NCBI RefSeq assembly: GCF_030532325.1
Contig: NZ_JAUNLS010000018.1
Location: 1-47,069 of the forward strand
DNA: 47,069 bases
From: Corynebacterium sp.
GTDB lineage: Bacteria > Actinomycetota > Actinomycetes > Mycobacteriales > Mycobacteriaceae
Direction of reading: 5' to 3'
Below the pieces are notes generated by a model. The model was given only the letters and a program-made list of their open reading frames with translations. It was not told where the DNA came from and ran no database searches. The position numbers were made by a program, and so were the translations under genes. This document shows, one piece after another, positions 21,679 through 28,851 of the stretch. The number at the start of each line of letters is the position of its first letter. Position 1 is the stretch's first letter.

Positions 21679-23760
<2,082 letters not shown>

Positions 23761-23775
23761 TCAGAAGCGTTCTCA

Positions 23776-25035
23776 TCAACTCCGCCACAGGTAGGACATC
23801 GGCAGGGCGATGAGCTTTTCTCCCAATGGTTGCACGCGATCAATGGGAGCCAACACGAAGCCTCCTACAAACTTCTTGCCCAGCTTCTCCCGAAGAACCG
23901 CGAGGTGCTTGGCGTGGTCACTTTTCACCGTTGACCCAGACTTCACTTCGACAGCCACAATGTTTCCATCTGCGTACTCGATGATCGCGTCTACTTCCAT
24001 TCCCCCGCTTTCACGCCAGTGGAGAATCCGGTAGTCAGTATCCGCCCATCCCTGCTGGGCACAGAGCTCTTGAAGGACAAAGCCCTCGACCAGATGGCCA
24101 AAGTTGGAGCTGGCCATCGGGTTCATGAGTGCCGATTCCTCTTGACCTGAGAGCCAGCATGCCAATCCAGAATCAGTGACCCAGGCCTTTGGTTTGGAAA
24201 CCTCCCGGGCTGTCAGGTTATTTTTCCACGCCTTGGCTTGCGAAAGCAGAAACAGCCGCGCAAGCGTATCCAGGTAGCTGCGCACGGTCGATGCCGGAAT
24301 ATCAGCTTCCCTGGCCAACTTCGAGGGAACCAACTCCCCCGCCTGGTGCGCTGCTGACAGACGCATGAGTGACTGGAGACGCCCAGGTTGCGCACGCTCC
24401 TGCGCCAGCGTCTCTTCCACGACGGTCATGTGCCCTAGGTAGGAGTCAAACCACAGCTTGCGCATCCGCGGACTCAACTCCAGCACGGGCGGATACCCGC
24501 CTCGAAGGAGCATGCCTACCAGTTCTTTTCGCGTGACAACCTCTGGTGCTACTGTTTGCGAGCTCAGGGAAAGAAGCTCCGGCACTCTATCAACAAAAGT
24601 CCCCATGTCCAGGGTCCCAGCCACCTCCTGTTGTGCCAGGGGGTGAAGATGCAGATCAACCATCCGGCCGGCTAGCGAATCCTTGCGCCCTAATCCGCGC
24701 GCAAAATCAGAGGACCCCGTTATGACAAAACGGCCGGGGCGCCGATCTGCATCGACTTCCGCTTTCAAGGCCAAGCTCAACTCCGGCAAGCGCTGGATCT
24801 CATCAATGATGAGCGCTCGATCACCACCCTGTTTCACAAAATACAGTGGGTCATCCTGAGCCAAGGACAGTGCAGCGGGATCATCGAGCGTGACGTAGAC
24901 CGCCTCATCCAAGCCGAGGTGTTGAGTCAGCGTTGACTTGCCCACCTGACGGGAACCGGTGACATGCAAGATAGGAGAAAACTCAAGAACCTCCCGCGCC
25001 AGCTCTTCAAGACCTCGCCGAATGTATGAATTCAT
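23776..25035 (-). CDS. AAA-family ATPase with DUF4143 C-terminal domain
   Basis: 419 aa. The Walker A motif GSRQVGKSTL (near residue 30) and Walker B ALIIDEIQRLPEL (near 95) lie in an AAA_14 core. A winged-helix/DUF4143 part follows. A PD-(D/E)XK-like motif GMEVDAIIEYADGNIVAVEV then KSGS lies near 345-365. Such COG1373 proteins are common accessory genes of unknown role, often suspected in defence or toxin-like systems. I favour ATG 25035: TAGGAT is exactly 7 nt before it (25044 is the longer choice). GC content looks lower than the flanking ligA, suggesting acquisition. A 22-bp repeat array lies directly upstream. Confidence 0.85.
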   Translation of the reverse strand: MNSYIRRGLEELAREVLEFSPILHVTGSRQVGKSTLTQHLGLDEAVYVTLDDPAALSLAQDDPLYFVKQGGDRALIIDEIQRLPELSLALKAEVDADRRPGRFVITGSSDFARGLGRKDSLAGRMVDLHLHPLAQQEVAGTLDMGTFVDRVPELLSLSSQTVAPEVVTRKELVGMLLRGGYPPVLELSPRMRKLWFDSYLGHMTVVEETLAQERAQPGRLQSLMRLSAAHQAGELVPSKLAREADIPASTVRSYLDTLARLFLLSQAKAWKNNLTAREVSKPKAWVTDSGLACWLSGQEESALMNPMASSNFGHLVEGFVLQELCAQQGWADTDYRILHWRESGGMEVDAIIEYADGNIVAVEVKSGSTVKSDHAKHLAVLREKLGKKFVGGFVLAPIDRVQPLGEKLIALPMSYLWRS

Positions 25036-25058
25036 AGAGCCCATCCTACCTGCCGATA

Positions 25059-25190
25059 GTCATTTCACAATACTCTATCCGTCATTCTGCAGAACCATGT
25101 CTGTCATTCTGCAACATCGAGTTCGTCATTCTACAGAGACACGTCTGTCATTCTGCAGCACCGAGTTCGTCATTCTGCAGGACTCACAGT
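25059..25190. repeat. 22-bp tandem repeat array upstream of the DUF4143 ATPase
   Basis: Five clear units, each starting GTCATTCT, begin at 25081, 25103, 25125, 25147 and 25169. A degenerate sixth (GTCATTTC) is at 25059. Spacing is exactly 22 bp throughout. Units alternate in their second half: GTCT endings (25081, 25125) and CGAGTTC endings (25103, 25147), giving a 44-bp super-period. The core often contains the palindrome-like TTCTGCAG. In the ATPase direction the motif is GCAGAATGAC. The degenerate unit overlaps the ATPase -35 zone, so the array is positioned as a regulatory site. The divergent exonuclease promoter is on the other side. Confidence 0.85.
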
Positions 25191-25254
25191 GCCAGTCTCG
25201 CGGACTTTCGAACACCGCGCCGCGCTGTCCGGGCTAGGCACTAGAGTGAAACGC

Positions 25255-25926
25255 ATGAACTTCGACGCCACCCGCATGCTTTCCTTCGATTTGGAGACCA
25301 CCTCCACCAACCCCAAAGAAGCCCGCATTGTCACCTCCGCGCTCGTGCGCATTGATGGCCGGGATGTGACCAAGAAAGAAACCCTGGCGGATCCCGGCGT
25401 GGAGATCCCGGAGGCAGCCGCCAAGATCCACGGCATCACCACGGAAAAGGCCCGCGCGGAGGGCCGCCCGCACGAGGAAGTCCTCAAGGAAACCGTGGAG
25501 GCCATCTACCAAGGCTGGGAGGAAGGCCTCACGCTTGTTGTCTACAACGCGGCTTATGACCTTTCCGTCCTGCGCGCGCTGACCGGGGACTTCACCGTCA
25601 ACGGGCCAGTCTACGATCCCTTCGTCATCGACCGCGTCAAGGACAAGTGGCGCAAGGGCAAGCGCACGCTGACTGACGTCTCCGCGCACTACGGCGTGCA
25701 GCTGGATAACGCCCACGAGGCCACCTCGGATGCACTCGCCGCCGCCCGCGTGGCGTGGAAACAGGTGCGCCAGCACTACCCAGAGCTATCCCAGATGGAC
25801 ACCACGGAGCTCATGGAGTTCCAAGCGGTCGAGTGGTACAAAGACCGCGAGTCCTTCAAGAAGTACCTGCAGGGCCAGGGCAAGGCTGCCTCTGACGTCT
25901 CCGCCGCGTGGCCGATGATTTCTTAA
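25255..25926 (+). CDS. DnaQ-like 3'-5' exonuclease
   Basis: 223 aa. The DEDD nuclease pattern is visible: Exo I LSFDLETTSTNPKEARIV (residues about 9-26), Exo II LVVYNAAYDLSVL near 100, and Exo III HEATSDALAAARVA near 155 with its His (DEDDh). Proofreading or repair exonuclease related to the Pol III epsilon subunit. I use ATG 25255, not the upstream codons, because TAGAGT lies 7 nt before it and homology starts there. It is divergent from the DUF4143 ATPase across the repeat array. Confidence 0.88.
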   Translation: MNFDATRMLSFDLETTSTNPKEARIVTSALVRIDGRDVTKKETLADPGVEIPEAAAKIHGITTEKARAEGRPHEEVLKETVEAIYQGWEEGLTLVVYNAAYDLSVLRALTGDFTVNGPVYDPFVIDRVKDKWRKGKRTLTDVSAHYGVQLDNAHEATSDALAAARVAWKQVRQHYPELSQMDTTELMEFQAVEWYKDRESFKKYLQGQGKAASDVSAAWPMIS

Positions 25927-25964
25927 GCCCGGCACAGGAGCTATTTCCCTCCAGCGGTTACCAT

Positions 25965-25992
25965 AATTCTAGAGTTCTTTAATTCTAGAATT
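25965..25992 (+). promoter_or_regulatory. Double palindromic operator before the regulator gene
   Basis: AATTCTAGAATT (25981-25992) is a perfect 12-bp palindrome touching the start codon at 25993. AATTCTAGAGTT (25965-25976) is a second copy with one mismatch, 16 bp upstream. TAGAGT inside the first copy can be a -10. The pattern fits autoregulation by the encoded winged-helix protein. Confidence 0.6.
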
Positions 25993-26520
25993 ATGAAAGC
26001 GACCGACCTTGAAGCACGCCTGGCTGAGCTTGAGCGCCGCATCGAAGCGCTCGATTCCGGCAACGGCATTTCCAGCCCCACTTCCCCTCAACACCACACC
26101 GTCTCCTCCCCGGATGCCGATCGCTTCTGGCTCGTCAGCGCCCTGCAGAACGGCCCGGAGATCCCCGATGGCTCCGTCATCTTCGGCGGCGACGTCAGCT
26201 TTGGTGGCAAGCGCTTTGCCTACCAGTGGCAGCGCCCCACCCACTTCATCGCGGATGAGTCTTGGTCCGACAAACTGGAGCGCCTCGCCGCGCTGGCCCA
26301 CCCGGTGCGCGGTGAGATCCTGCGCAGGCTCCTCTGCGCGCCTGCCACCGCGGCGGAGCTCGTAGAGGAAGAGGTAGTCAGCTCCACCGGCACCGCCTAC
26401 CACCACCTCGGCGCATTGCAGTCCGCCGGCTGGGTAGCCAAAGACGAGGGCCGGTGGTCCATCCGCCCCAGCAGGGTCGTCCCCCTGATGAGCATCGTTA
26501 TCGCGGCGGAGGATCACTGA
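25993..26520 (+). CDS. ArsR-like winged-helix transcriptional regulator
   Basis: 175 aa. An N-terminal short coiled segment (LEARLAELERRIEALD) is followed by a roughly 50-residue linker and strand-rich region. The HTH starts around residue 95 (WSDKLERLAALAHPVRGEIL, RRLLCAPATAAELVEEEVVS) with recognition helix and wing (GTAYHHLGALQSAGWVAKDE). No metal-binding Cys motif is seen. Its TGA overlaps the ATG of the serine hydrolase by 1 nt, so it probably controls that gene and itself through the upstream palindromes. Confidence 0.8.
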   Translation: MKATDLEARLAELERRIEALDSGNGISSPTSPQHHTVSSPDADRFWLVSALQNGPEIPDGSVIFGGDVSFGGKRFAYQWQRPTHFIADESWSDKLERLAALAHPVRGEILRRLLCAPATAAELVEEEVVSSTGTAYHHLGALQSAGWVAKDEGRWSIRPSRVVPLMSIVIAAEDH

Positions 26521-27575
26521 TGAGCCACGCAGCACACAATCACACAGCGCACAATACTGAACCCGTACGGCGCCGCCCCCTGACACTGGTCCTCGCCATC
26601 CTCGTCGCCCTCATCCTGGCCGGGGCCCTGATACTCATCGGCCCCAAGCCCATCACGCTCTCTACCCAGCGCACGGGCGACGCCGACCTTGCCGGGGCCA
26701 TCGACAAGCACGCGCAGCGCGGCTTCCGCAACGTCACTGCCTTTACCCTCAACGGCGATGAGACCACCTTTGCGGGCCTGGGCGCAGACGCGCACACGGA
26801 GGTAGAGATCGGCTCGGTGACCAAGATGTTCACCGCGGAACTGCTCCACCAGGAGGTGGCCGCTGGGCGGCTGAGCCTAGACACCACCGTGGGCGAGGTG
26901 CTCGACGTCGGCGATACACCCATCGCCACGGTCAGTCTGCGCGAGCTGCGGGATCACACCTCGGGCCTGCCGCGGCTGGCCAGCACCAATGCGCTGAGCA
27001 ACATCACGGACATGATCACCGGCGCCAACCCTTACGAGGGCGAGAGCGTCCATGACATCATGGAGGCGGCCACCGACGCCGAACTTTCTGGCCGCGGGGA
27101 GGAAAGCTACTCCAATCTGGGATACGCGCTGCTCGGCCACGTCCTCGAAACCGAGGCCGGCGTGCCCTACGAGCAGCTGCTGCGCGAGCGGATCTTCCAC
27201 CCTGCCGGCATGAGCGAGACCTACCTCATGACCCCGGGTAGCGTGCCTGCCGATGCCCCACGCGGCATCATGGCCAGTGGCCGTGCCGCCCAGCCCTGGG
27301 AAATGGAGGGCTCCGCCCCCGCCGGCGCGATTCGCTCCACCGCCGCTGACATGTCGAAGTTTGCCCAGTGGATGATGAGCAACGGTGACGTCACCTACGG
27401 CTGGGAGGTCAACGCGCCGGAGGACGGTGGCGGCTACTGGCACGACGGCGGAACCTACGGCTATTCCACCATGCTGATCATCGACCCAGACACCCGCCAT
27501 GCGGCCTTTGCCAACAACGACACCTTGATGGGCACTGAGAGCCTTGCCCACGAGCTGTTCAAGGAGATGAGCTAG
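26520..27575 (+). CDS. Membrane-anchored serine hydrolase, beta-lactamase/PBP4* family
   Basis: 351 aa. One N-terminal hydrophobic segment (LTLVLAILVALILAGALILI) acts as signal anchor. The extracellular domain has the class C-like triad: SVTK near residue 98, YSN in SYSNLGYALLG near 197, and HDG in YWHDGGTYGYST near 310. It may be a DD-peptidase, esterase or beta-lactamase-like enzyme; sequence alone does not decide. ATG 26520 has GGAGG 7-10 nt upstream and overlaps the regulator stop (TGATG). Confidence 0.85.
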   Translation: MSHAAHNHTAHNTEPVRRRPLTLVLAILVALILAGALILIGPKPITLSTQRTGDADLAGAIDKHAQRGFRNVTAFTLNGDETTFAGLGADAHTEVEIGSVTKMFTAELLHQEVAAGRLSLDTTVGEVLDVGDTPIATVSLRELRDHTSGLPRLASTNALSNITDMITGANPYEGESVHDIMEAATDAELSGRGEESYSNLGYALLGHVLETEAGVPYEQLLRERIFHPAGMSETYLMTPGSVPADAPRGIMASGRAAQPWEMEGSAPAGAIRSTAADMSKFAQWMMSNGDVTYGWEVNAPEDGGGYWHDGGTYGYSTMLIIDPDTRHAAFANNDTLMGTESLAHELFKEMS

Positions 27576-27650
27576 ACCATGTTTCTCTTCGCCCCCATCT
27601 TGCTCACCCGGCCCGCACCCGCGCACCCGGCCGCCGCCCGCCAGGAGGCA

Positions 27651-27704
27651 AAGTCTCCCGAATCTCCGGCGCATTAAAAGTCTCCGAAATCTCCCAAGTC
27701 TCCA
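27651..27704. repeat. 9-bp phased repeat array upstream of the ATP-binding protein
   Basis: The hexamer RTCTCC occurs at 27653 (G), 27662 (A), 27680 (G), 27689 (A) and 27698 (G). All are in 9-bp register, with one degenerate unit at 27671. G and A alternate, so the higher period is 18 bp (AGTCTCCGAAATCTCCC). The array ends 8 bp before the -10 TATACT (27712-27717) and occupies the -35 position, so it is placed to regulate the ATPase gene. Confidence 0.8.
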
Positions 27705-27711
27705 CTCGCGC

Positions 27712-27717
27712 TATACT
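27712..27717 (+). promoter_or_regulatory. -10 element of the ATP-binding protein gene
   Basis: TATACT ends 6 nt before ATG 27724 and no ribosome-binding site is present, so a leaderless transcript is expected. The -35 position (about 27689-27694) is one of the repeat units. Confidence 0.65.
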
Positions 27718-27723
27718 GGCGAC

Positions 27724-28851
27724 ATGACTGCGCAGAACCCCTTCCGCCCCACCTTCGGCGCCCCGCCCCTGTTTTGGGTGGGGCGCTCGGTTGTCCTCGA
27801 TACCTTCCGCGGGGCGCTGCACGCTCAGGCAGGAACCGCGGGCCGCTCGCTGGTCATCAGCGGTGCGCGCGGAATCGGCAAGACGGTCCTGCTCAACGAG
27901 CTCGAGGATATCGCCGAGACCCAGGGCTGGATCACGCTGCGCGCCTCCGGCCGCAGCACCATGGTCGAGGAGCTGGTCAACACCACCATCCCGCGCATCA
28001 TCGAGCGCCTCTCGCCCTCCGATAAGCGCAGAATCAACCGCCTAGGCATCGGCGGGGTGGGCTCCATCGGCATCGAGCACACTACCGAGGTGCCCTTCAC
28101 GCACAACCTCAACACCCGCCTGCGCGAGCTGCTGTCCCTGCTGCGCGGGGTGGGGGTGCTGCTTAGCATCGACGAGGTGCAAGACGCCCACACCGAGGAT
28201 CTCACCACCATCGCGGTGACCTATCAGGACCTCGTGCGCGACGAGCTGGACGTGGCGATTGTCGCCGCCGGGCTGCCGCAGGGCATCAACAAGCTGCTGG
28301 ATCTGCCCGGCGTGACCTTCCTGCGCCGCGCCCAGAAGTTCGTCCTTGGCCCGCTCTCCCCCGCCAACGCCGCCGAGGCCTTTACCGCCACCGCCGCCAA
28401 CTCCGGGCTGCAGTTCACCGGGCCCGCCGTCAGCGCCGCCGTGGAGCTCTCCCGCGGCTACCCCTACCTGGTCCAGCTGGTGGGCTCCCTGGCGTGGTCG
28501 CGCGCCGAGCGCCTGGGCACGAGCCACATCGAGGCCGAGCACGTGGAGGCGATTTCCCAGCAGGCCATCACCACCCTGGGAGTCCAGGTGCATCAGCCGG
28601 CCACCACGGCCCTGCCGCCGGCGCAGCGCGAGTTCCTCGAGGCCATGTCCGCGGTCATCACCGGCGGTGTGGCGGACATCGCGGACATCGCTGCGCACCT
28701 CCAGCGCACGGTCCGCTCGTTATCGGCCACGCGCCAGCGGCTTATCGACGCCGACCTCATCGAACCCATCGCCCACGGCCAGCTCCAATTCGTCATCCCC
28801 TACATGGAGCGCTACTTCACCGGAACGGACCGGCTGGGGAGAGTCGACTAG
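27724..28851 (+). CDS. P-loop ATP-binding protein, AAA/STAND-like
   Basis: 375 aa. Walker A GARGIGKT is at residues 47-54 and Walker B VLLSIDEVQDA near 148. A sensor-like VAIVAAGLPQGIN lies near 185. A helical lid (GYPYLVQLVGSLAWSRAERL) and a C-terminal winged helix (ADIAAHLQRTVRSLSATRQR, LIDADLIEPIAHGQLQFVIP) follow. The architecture resembles Orc/Cdc6-like and STAND signalling ATPases found as solitary accessory genes. Function unknown. It is preceded by the 9-bp repeat array, and no partner gene is adjacent. Confidence 0.8.
   Translation: MTAQNPFRPTFGAPPLFWVGRSVVLDTFRGALHAQAGTAGRSLVISGARGIGKTVLLNELEDIAETQGWITLRASGRSTMVEELVNTTIPRIIERLSPSDKRRINRLGIGGVGSIGIEHTTEVPFTHNLNTRLRELLSLLRGVGVLLSIDEVQDAHTEDLTTIAVTYQDLVRDELDVAIVAAGLPQGINKLLDLPGVTFLRRAQKFVLGPLSPANAAEAFTATAANSGLQFTGPAVSAAVELSRGYPYLVQLVGSLAWSRAERLGTSHIEAEHVEAISQQAITTLGVQVHQPATTALPPAQREFLEAMSAVITGGVADIADIAAHLQRTVRSLSATRQRLIDADLIEPIAHGQLQFVIPYMERYFTGTDRLGRVD

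Follow-up and report, generated by a model that had tools for sequence, protein, structure and literature searches.

Promoter arrays of 22–23-bp tandem repeats co-evolve with DUF4143 ATPases and are probably their private operators

A DUF4143 ATPase gene of Corynebacterium sp. carries tandem 22-bp repeats at its promoter, and arrays of this kind were found upstream of most members of its family. The computations show three things: the linkage of array and gene across the family, the co-evolution of array and protein, and a characteristic promoter geometry. The reading that we prefer, at a probability of about 0.73, is that the ATPase binds the array as a private iteron operator and thus regulates itself. 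Our confidence in it was lowered by exceptions across clades and by rival residue pairs in the covariation analysis.

The array and its gene in the window

The window is the whole stretch of DNA that was analysed (47,069 nucleotides). The two top Tandem Repeats Finder scores in it belong to periods 44 (25080–25180, 87% matches) and 22 (25078–25180, 69% matches) of one array, so that the tandem repeats noticed in the first-pass annotation are real. Six cores lie within 25059–25179, 22 bp apart throughout. Read on the minus strand, as the ATPase gene runs, a unit consists of TGCAGAATGAC followed by 11 nt. The exact core occurs in units 1 (the distal one, 25169–25179), 2 (25147–25157), 4 (25103–25113) and 5 (25081–25091); unit 3 (25125–25135) has TGTAGAATGAC, with one mismatch, and the last, unit 6 (25059–25069), has the degenerate core TGTGAAATGAC. 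The exact 11-mer is expected in 0.0044 copies per strand of the window, and its four copies in the 2.49-Mb genome are all in this array. The second halves of the units had been described as alternating, with a 44-bp super-period. This is correct for four spacers, those among the five good cores: at distance 44 they match in 9/11 and 8/11 positions, and neighbours match in 3–4/11. The fifth spacer, before the degenerate unit, breaks the alternation (4/11 with its supposed partner). CRISPR repeats are about 24–48 nt long and have unique spacers, unlike this array with its 11-nt core in 22-nt units and four spacers of two alternating kinds.

The gene (23776–25035, minus strand, 419 aa) encodes an AAA_14/putative wHTH/DUF4143 (PD-(D/E)XK) ATPase, which is a candidate PDC-S01 protein in PADLOC. 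In the Pfam scan (E ≤ 1e-3), only AAA_14 (E 2.7e-24) and DUF4143 (E 1.2e-36), both above the cut-offs, and a weak HTH_IclR match at residues 232–268, below the cut-off, were found; no Rep family was among the matches. The protein is a PDC-S01 member by HMM, the PADLOC profile PDLC04790 covering positions 3–421 of 422 (E 1.9e-135). NCBIfam and PHROGs gave no match to it, and a PDB sequence search returned nanobodies and antibodies at E ≥ 0.0086, which were taken as spurious. The residues K36, D81, E82, D352, E366 and K368 of the Walker A/B and PD-(D/E)XK motifs are each conserved in 192–198 of 199 homologues (K36 in 198, D352 in 197, E366 in 192 and K368 in 194), so that an active ATPase and nuclease are expected in this family.

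The start codon, formerly placed at 25044, is likely to be at 25035: this position aligns with those of the orthologues L018–L020 and puts the hexamer TAGGAT 13 nt upstream. We regard TAGGAT (25043–25048, minus strand) as the −10 hexamer of a presumed leaderless promoter, on the basis of the family-wide peak of TANNNT at −12/−13. Relative to this start, the degenerate unit covers −34 to −24, and the earlier view that it overlaps the −35 zone is borne out. The lower GC content of the gene was likewise confirmed (0.571, against 0.661 for the window; the array has 0.459), GC content being the property through which the first-pass idea of an acquired module was assessed. The same intergenic region is shared by a divergent exonuclease gene on the plus strand (25255–25926; RNase_T, E 2.2e-14), and the other conserved flank is an ORF at 21679–23703 (minus strand), which we take to be ligA (DNA ligase). 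Both flanks are kept in 10 related genomes.

The window has a second ATPase gene with repeats at its promoter. This AAA_16 gene (27724–28851, plus strand; E 3.1e-14), for which PADLOC gave no match, is preceded by direct repeats AAAGTCTCC..AATCTCC at 27650–27723, with p 0.06 for the repeat at this locus itself. Homologues were found in 90 of 121 genus genomes. Upstream repeats reached p < 0.05 at 21 of the 24 best loci, as judged against 100 shuffles and not against control genes; their units are specific to lineages, being 8–9 bp long or pairs of 9-mers every 27–29 bp.

Arrays across the DUF4143 family

A DUF4143 homologue at E ≤ 1e-30 is present in 36 of 242 genus genomes, the own genome included, and 54 of 196 genomes of the class were positive for a homologue; further loci were taken from three families and from plasmids (12 of the 40 records listed among 383 with a match). 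Another search supplied 6 of its 40 listed records. The 246 loci were searched for full open frames, and 199 genes were left after removal of duplicates and incomplete proteins; they are mostly best-scoring matches rather than a random draw. For each gene, 200 bp upstream were compared with 200 dinucleotide shuffles. A significant tandem repeat (p < 0.05) was found in 179 of the 199 genes, 168 of them at the floor of 0.005, and in the remaining 20 none was found. The best lag was 22, 23, 44 or 45 bp in 174 genes, the set of lags having been picked after a first survey of arrays. Among 269 control genes of the same loci, 58 passed p < 0.05; 51 of these did so at multiples of three, which coding DNA gives, and only five of the controls had a lag of 22, 23, 44 or 45, four of them at 45. 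In 176 genes the repeats could be chained into arrays of 2–8 units (median 4), with spacings of 23 (440 intervals), 22 (157), 24 (17) and 21 (16) bp; the chaining admitted only 21–24 bp, and a lag scan over 12–45 bp found 22/23 best. Outside the main clade described below, the forward orientation of the unit was the better one in 62 of 107 cases.

The arrays are also found outside the class. Among 22 plasmid and viral-contig loci (none labelled as this class; 11 also among the 199), 13 had a significant repeat of 22, 23 or 44 bp within 140 bp: Agrobacterium, Azotobacter, Sphingomonas, Asticcacaulis, two similar Sulfitobacter loci, Qingshengfaniella, Prosthecochloris, Bacteroides uniformis pBUN1, Collinsella and three viral contigs. 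The other nine had no significant repeat of these lengths in the 140 bp. The Azotobacter repeat is marginal (p 0.04 on 140 bp; not significant on 200 bp). Viral contigs gave no locus in one scan and five in another, and three of the four examined have 22- or 44-bp repeats.

Some genes differ from this picture. A B. uniformis plasmid gene (L127) and a viral-contig gene (L264) have their best upstream lag at 32 rather than 22–23 bp. The 44-bp period, which outscores 22 in the window, recurs as a significant best lag of 44–45 bp in 11 of the 199 genes (L026, L035, L037, L085, L087 and others), which may be a sign that protomers pair along the DNA. Among 21 genes examined that lack a significant array, five (L117, L066, L126, L187 and L142) have a palindrome ending 0–12 nt before the start codon (p 0.01–0.04 against simple shuffles), and some DUF4143 subfamilies may thus use another operator layout. 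One of the five, L142, is the second DUF4143 gene of the own genome (contig 32): no 22-bp array was seen on reading it, and its inverted repeat TCTTTGCA-TTAAAG-TGCAAAGA abuts the start codon (p 0.04).

The position of the arrays relative to the genes was examined in the 176 genes with chained arrays. In 83 of them a TANNNT hexamer starts at −12 or −13, against about 4 expected (about 2 per offset), and Shine-Dalgarno-like motifs occur in 35; such a picture is typical of leaderless promoters. From the end of the last repeat core to the start codon the median distance is 22.5 nt (quartiles 12 and 35, with an arbitrary choice of core phase), and so the array would usually sit at the −35 region of a leaderless promoter.

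The repeats change with the protein. Three orthologues at 70–71% identity (L018–L020) have four units with the word and spacing of the window, two of the four carrying one mismatch in L020; most of the more distant homologues have other words at this spacing. A check of homologues had been proposed in the first-pass annotation, and its outcome is divided: arrays of the same period precede most of the family, but the word GCAGAATGAC itself is confined to near orthologues. Mean array similarity falls from 0.92 for proteins at ≥90% identity to 0.77 (80–90%), 0.68 (70–80%), 0.55 (60–70%), 0.47 (50–60%) and 0.32 (below 30%). Two or more arrays are present in each of 38 genomes, whose 78 paralogue pairs gave a mean of 0.38 and a maximum of 0.67; for the 60 of those paralogue genes that have a homologue of ≥80% in another genome, the mean was 0.86 and the minimum 0.48. 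One clade, with 69 genes, has the unit CG[G/A]C[A/C][G/A]A.C NN CCA. Its positions 10 and 11 are kept within arrays (0.70 and 0.75 bits) and not between genes (0.16 and 0.15), which gives them the look of a gene-specific recognition site. In many lineages, about half of each unit is conserved at a constant spacing. The features looked for in an autoregulatory operator, namely sites that lie at the own promoter and match the own protein in sequence, were thus found, with exceptions at the level of residues.

Covariation of protein residues and repeat bases

Covariation was calculated for 65 of the 69 clade genes (L223, L242, L060 and L063 were dropped), or about 24 effective sequences, with bases simulated along the protein tree as the null (400 simulations). 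In a first MI ranking the top places went to columns that hardly vary and have single changes; the later ranking needed at least four minority sequences. The p values are at or near the simulation floor and uncorrected for thousands of pairs. The top pairs include two regions of the protein. One is residue 346, six residues before D352 near the PD-(D/E)XK motif, which covaries with unit positions 5, 3 and 6 (z 7.0, 6.4 and 5.6). The other is residues 250–258 (PASTVRSYL), which we take, from general knowledge and the weak HTH match, to be the putative recognition helix: residue 252 covaries with positions 12 and 11 (z 6.0 and 4.6), 256 with 13 (z 6.0) and 250 with 12 (z 5.4). Rival pairs of like score were also found, namely 201 with 13 and 14 (z 6.6 and 5.3), 285 with 15 (6.1) and 188 with 13 (5.4), and 14 residues in total exceed z 4.

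At residue 346, R pairs with CGGCAG and K with CGACCA units. In the training set, R346 was accompanied by G3 in 40 of 40 genes, and K346 by A3 in 14 of 24, by G or T in two (one each), eight being unreadable. Among later genes, of which 37 of 49 were used and 12 dropped after inspection of their units (for distance or unreadable phase), K346 went with A3 in 18 of 19 (one unreadable) and R346 with G3 in 18 of 18; the K/R split in this set follows a subclade, and as a predictor of positions 3 and 5 residue 346 has many equals. One of the dropped genes, L348, is a real counterexample, having K346 with CGGC. No residue predicted position 11 better than 252 (24 of 34, a score shared by 208 and 192; the majority guess gives 12).

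In 49 disjoint sister pairs, training genes included, residue 346 comes first out of 422 at position 5, which is readable in 41 pairs, and only fourth at position 3 and sixth at position 6. Residue 252 ranks first for position 11 (all 6 base changes, 41 pairs) and 26th at position 12, where 314 is best. At position 13, residue 256 shares the first rank with 269 (3 of 3, 47 pairs). No simple code holds across clades: S346 occurs with TGCAGAA, TGCAAAT and TCGGTT units, and R346 also with TGCAAAA. The combination of S346 and TGCAGAA is seen in two lineages whose helices and second halves differ. A domain-level partial correlation did not single out the wHTH.

Taken as sequence evidence, the covariation points to the ATPase as the reader of the array, a conclusion that is supported rather than settled. 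The case that it reads its array with two parts, the helix with residues 252 and 256 and the region of 346, is good and not final. The suggestion in the first-pass annotation of a phased protein-binding array, perhaps bound by the ATPase, gains from this covariation, from the units of the orthologues and from the family-wide period.

A private operator and its alternatives

In the mechanism that we propose, the ATPase would bind the array directly, at about one protomer per 22–23-bp unit, and form a head-to-tail oligomer along the DNA; direct binding, oligomer formation and control by ATP are what we infer. The recognition helix of the winged helix would read the gene-proximal half of each unit, and in the PD-(D/E)XK domain a loop directly preceding the catalytic Asp would read the distal half. 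Because the array lies at the −35 zone of a leaderless promoter, its binding would set the transcription of the gene itself. The most likely effect would be repression, by which a potentially harmful nuclease is kept low until a signal changes the ATP state or draws the ATPase off. By analogy with effectors that limit themselves, we lean towards this negative sign, and activation, as with SARPs and MalT, would be the alternative. Regulated expression of a family member has been seen: the available part of one report tabulates the Thermus thermophilus DUF4143 gene TT_P0211 (value 6.6) under changes in gene expression with plasmid DNA (PMC4406477). A more far-reaching picture, to which we give a low probability, is that of a co-evolving 22–23-bp address that most members of this widespread candidate immune family would carry and that is read jointly by the winged helix and the nuclease domain, with an immune nuclease parked as an oligomer on its own promoter and freed when infection disturbs it.

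A different use of the same binding is possible, though we do not favour it: the ATPase may read the array as a self-label or leash, which holds the nuclease in an inactive oligomer until competing foreign DNA or a signal frees it, with transcription not being the main purpose. The conservation of the Walker and PD-(D/E)XK residues agrees with this, and because the residue near the catalytic Asp covaries with the array, the array may be the DNA on which the active site sits. Up to 8 units in an array also look, in our opinion, excessive for simple repression. However, the place of the array just upstream of the −10 hexamer and the palindromes at the start codons of some array-less members fit transcriptional control.

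That a host transcription factor binds the arrays is improbable. A SARP-type activator would be an example, for the heptamer CGGCAAG resembles the CGGCAGA of one clade, and the direct repeats to which SARP/LAL regulators bind lie on one face of the DNA close to promoters, according to the available text of PMC5930380. Against such a factor stand the unlike arrays of paralogues in one genome, the covariation of the units with ATPase residues, and a spacing of 22–23 rather than 11 bp. Moreover, a shared host-factor site was rejected by the distribution of the paired word, which in 242 genus genomes is confined to two settings, the present locus in 11 of them and a single diverged homologue.

Equally improbable is that the array belongs to a mobile or homing cycle, marking an insertion site beside which the gene comes and goes. 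This idea draws on genomes that have the array without the gene. The pattern TGCAGAATGACn11TGCAGAATGAC, with two mismatches allowed, was found in 12 of the 242 genus genomes: four with the gene, one with a diverged relative (G258) and seven without the gene, which have 2–4 units between the exonuclease gene and ligA. Repeats unlinked to such genes, which the first-pass annotation would have counted against a connection, thus exist, yet at this same locus. In the seven orphan arrays (L012, L265–L267 and L269–L271), 15 of 17 units are intact. The gene-less junction is C[T/C]GCAGGT followed by the sequence upstream of ligA; in the window, GCAGGT at 25048–25053 (minus strand) is the counterpart of the left microrepeat. 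On the exonuclease tree, which is built from one gene and carries no support values, the gene-less genomes with junctions of the same kind form two separate branches, and at least two losses of the ATPase gene are therefore likely, with recombination as another possibility. The GCAGGT microrepeats flank the gene in L018, with diverged forms in L019 and L020 and none clear on the right in the window, so that simple deletion suffices; in addition, the most distant member, that of the window, has the gene. In G258, the homologue (L268) was matched over residues 8–121 at 47% identity and has the similar yet distinct unit TGCAGAATCAC; no further ATPase match was found in 1.1 kb downstream, and the gene may be truncated.

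That the repeats are a transcribed small RNA or neutral tandem duplications is very improbable, for nothing beyond the repetition itself speaks for it, whereas no Rfam match to an RNA element was found in 23000–26600, leaderless transcripts would begin downstream of the array, and about half of the unit is kept at fixed spacing.

The private operator that we prefer has parallels in known systems. With plasmid iterons and their Rep initiators, as with ORC/Cdc6 and DnaA, tandem repeats (in some cases about 22 bp long) are bound by winged-helix or AAA+ proteins, which are often autoregulated; unlike iteron replicons, the DUF4143 ATPase shows no Rep family in Pfam, and its arrays are at promoters. 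The C proteins of restriction-modification systems are a case of a defence system that controls itself via an operator at its own promoter; the regulator there is a small HTH protein distinct from the effector, and its boxes are palindromic, whereas in the DUF4143 family the candidate effector seems to be the reader and the sites are direct repeats. SARP and SARP-LAL regulators carry SARP-type DNA-binding and BTAD domains and no known nuclease domain, use heptamers of about 11-bp period and have targets other than their own gene, and MalT serves a regulon. In contrast, the window ATPase has no SARP-type or BTAD domain in the Pfam scan (E ≤ 1e-3), the arrays have a 22–23-bp spacing rather than about 11 bp and a gene-specific unit, and one private array serves one gene, whose product also has a nuclease domain. 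The likeness lies in the mode of binding: as far as the accessible parts of the sources go, cooperative binding to direct repeats close to the promoter is seen with PimR, AfsR and related regulators, of which some contain an ATPase domain (PMC5930380), and the STAND ATPase regulator MalT forms an ATP-dependent multimer that binds MalT boxes cooperatively and recruits RNA polymerase (PMC4381067).

Membership of PDC-S01 makes the ATPase a candidate anti-phage protein. PDC-S01, which occurs in PMC12988326, PMC13356809 and PMC12733099, is given in the first of these as the fourth most common defence across prokaryotes, most PDCs awaiting experimental validation; the same source reports the family to be abundant in archaea. 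The part of PMC12988326 that was available mentions no promoter array, and a search of the open-access literature, preprints being outside its scope, gave no description of repeat arrays with such ATPases; the array, the co-evolution and the candidate reading residues are new here. For what is counted among the commonest candidate defence systems, a self-matched array offers immediate access to the mechanism. Each protein is thereby assigned a predicted DNA ligand, and binding, oligomer state, nuclease control and specificity become jointly testable, and well over a hundred natural protein–site pairs are available for decoding recognition. The array is also a sequence signature by which members of the DUF4143 family can be found and annotated, and other ATPase families, such as that of the AAA_16 gene in the window, may follow the same principle.
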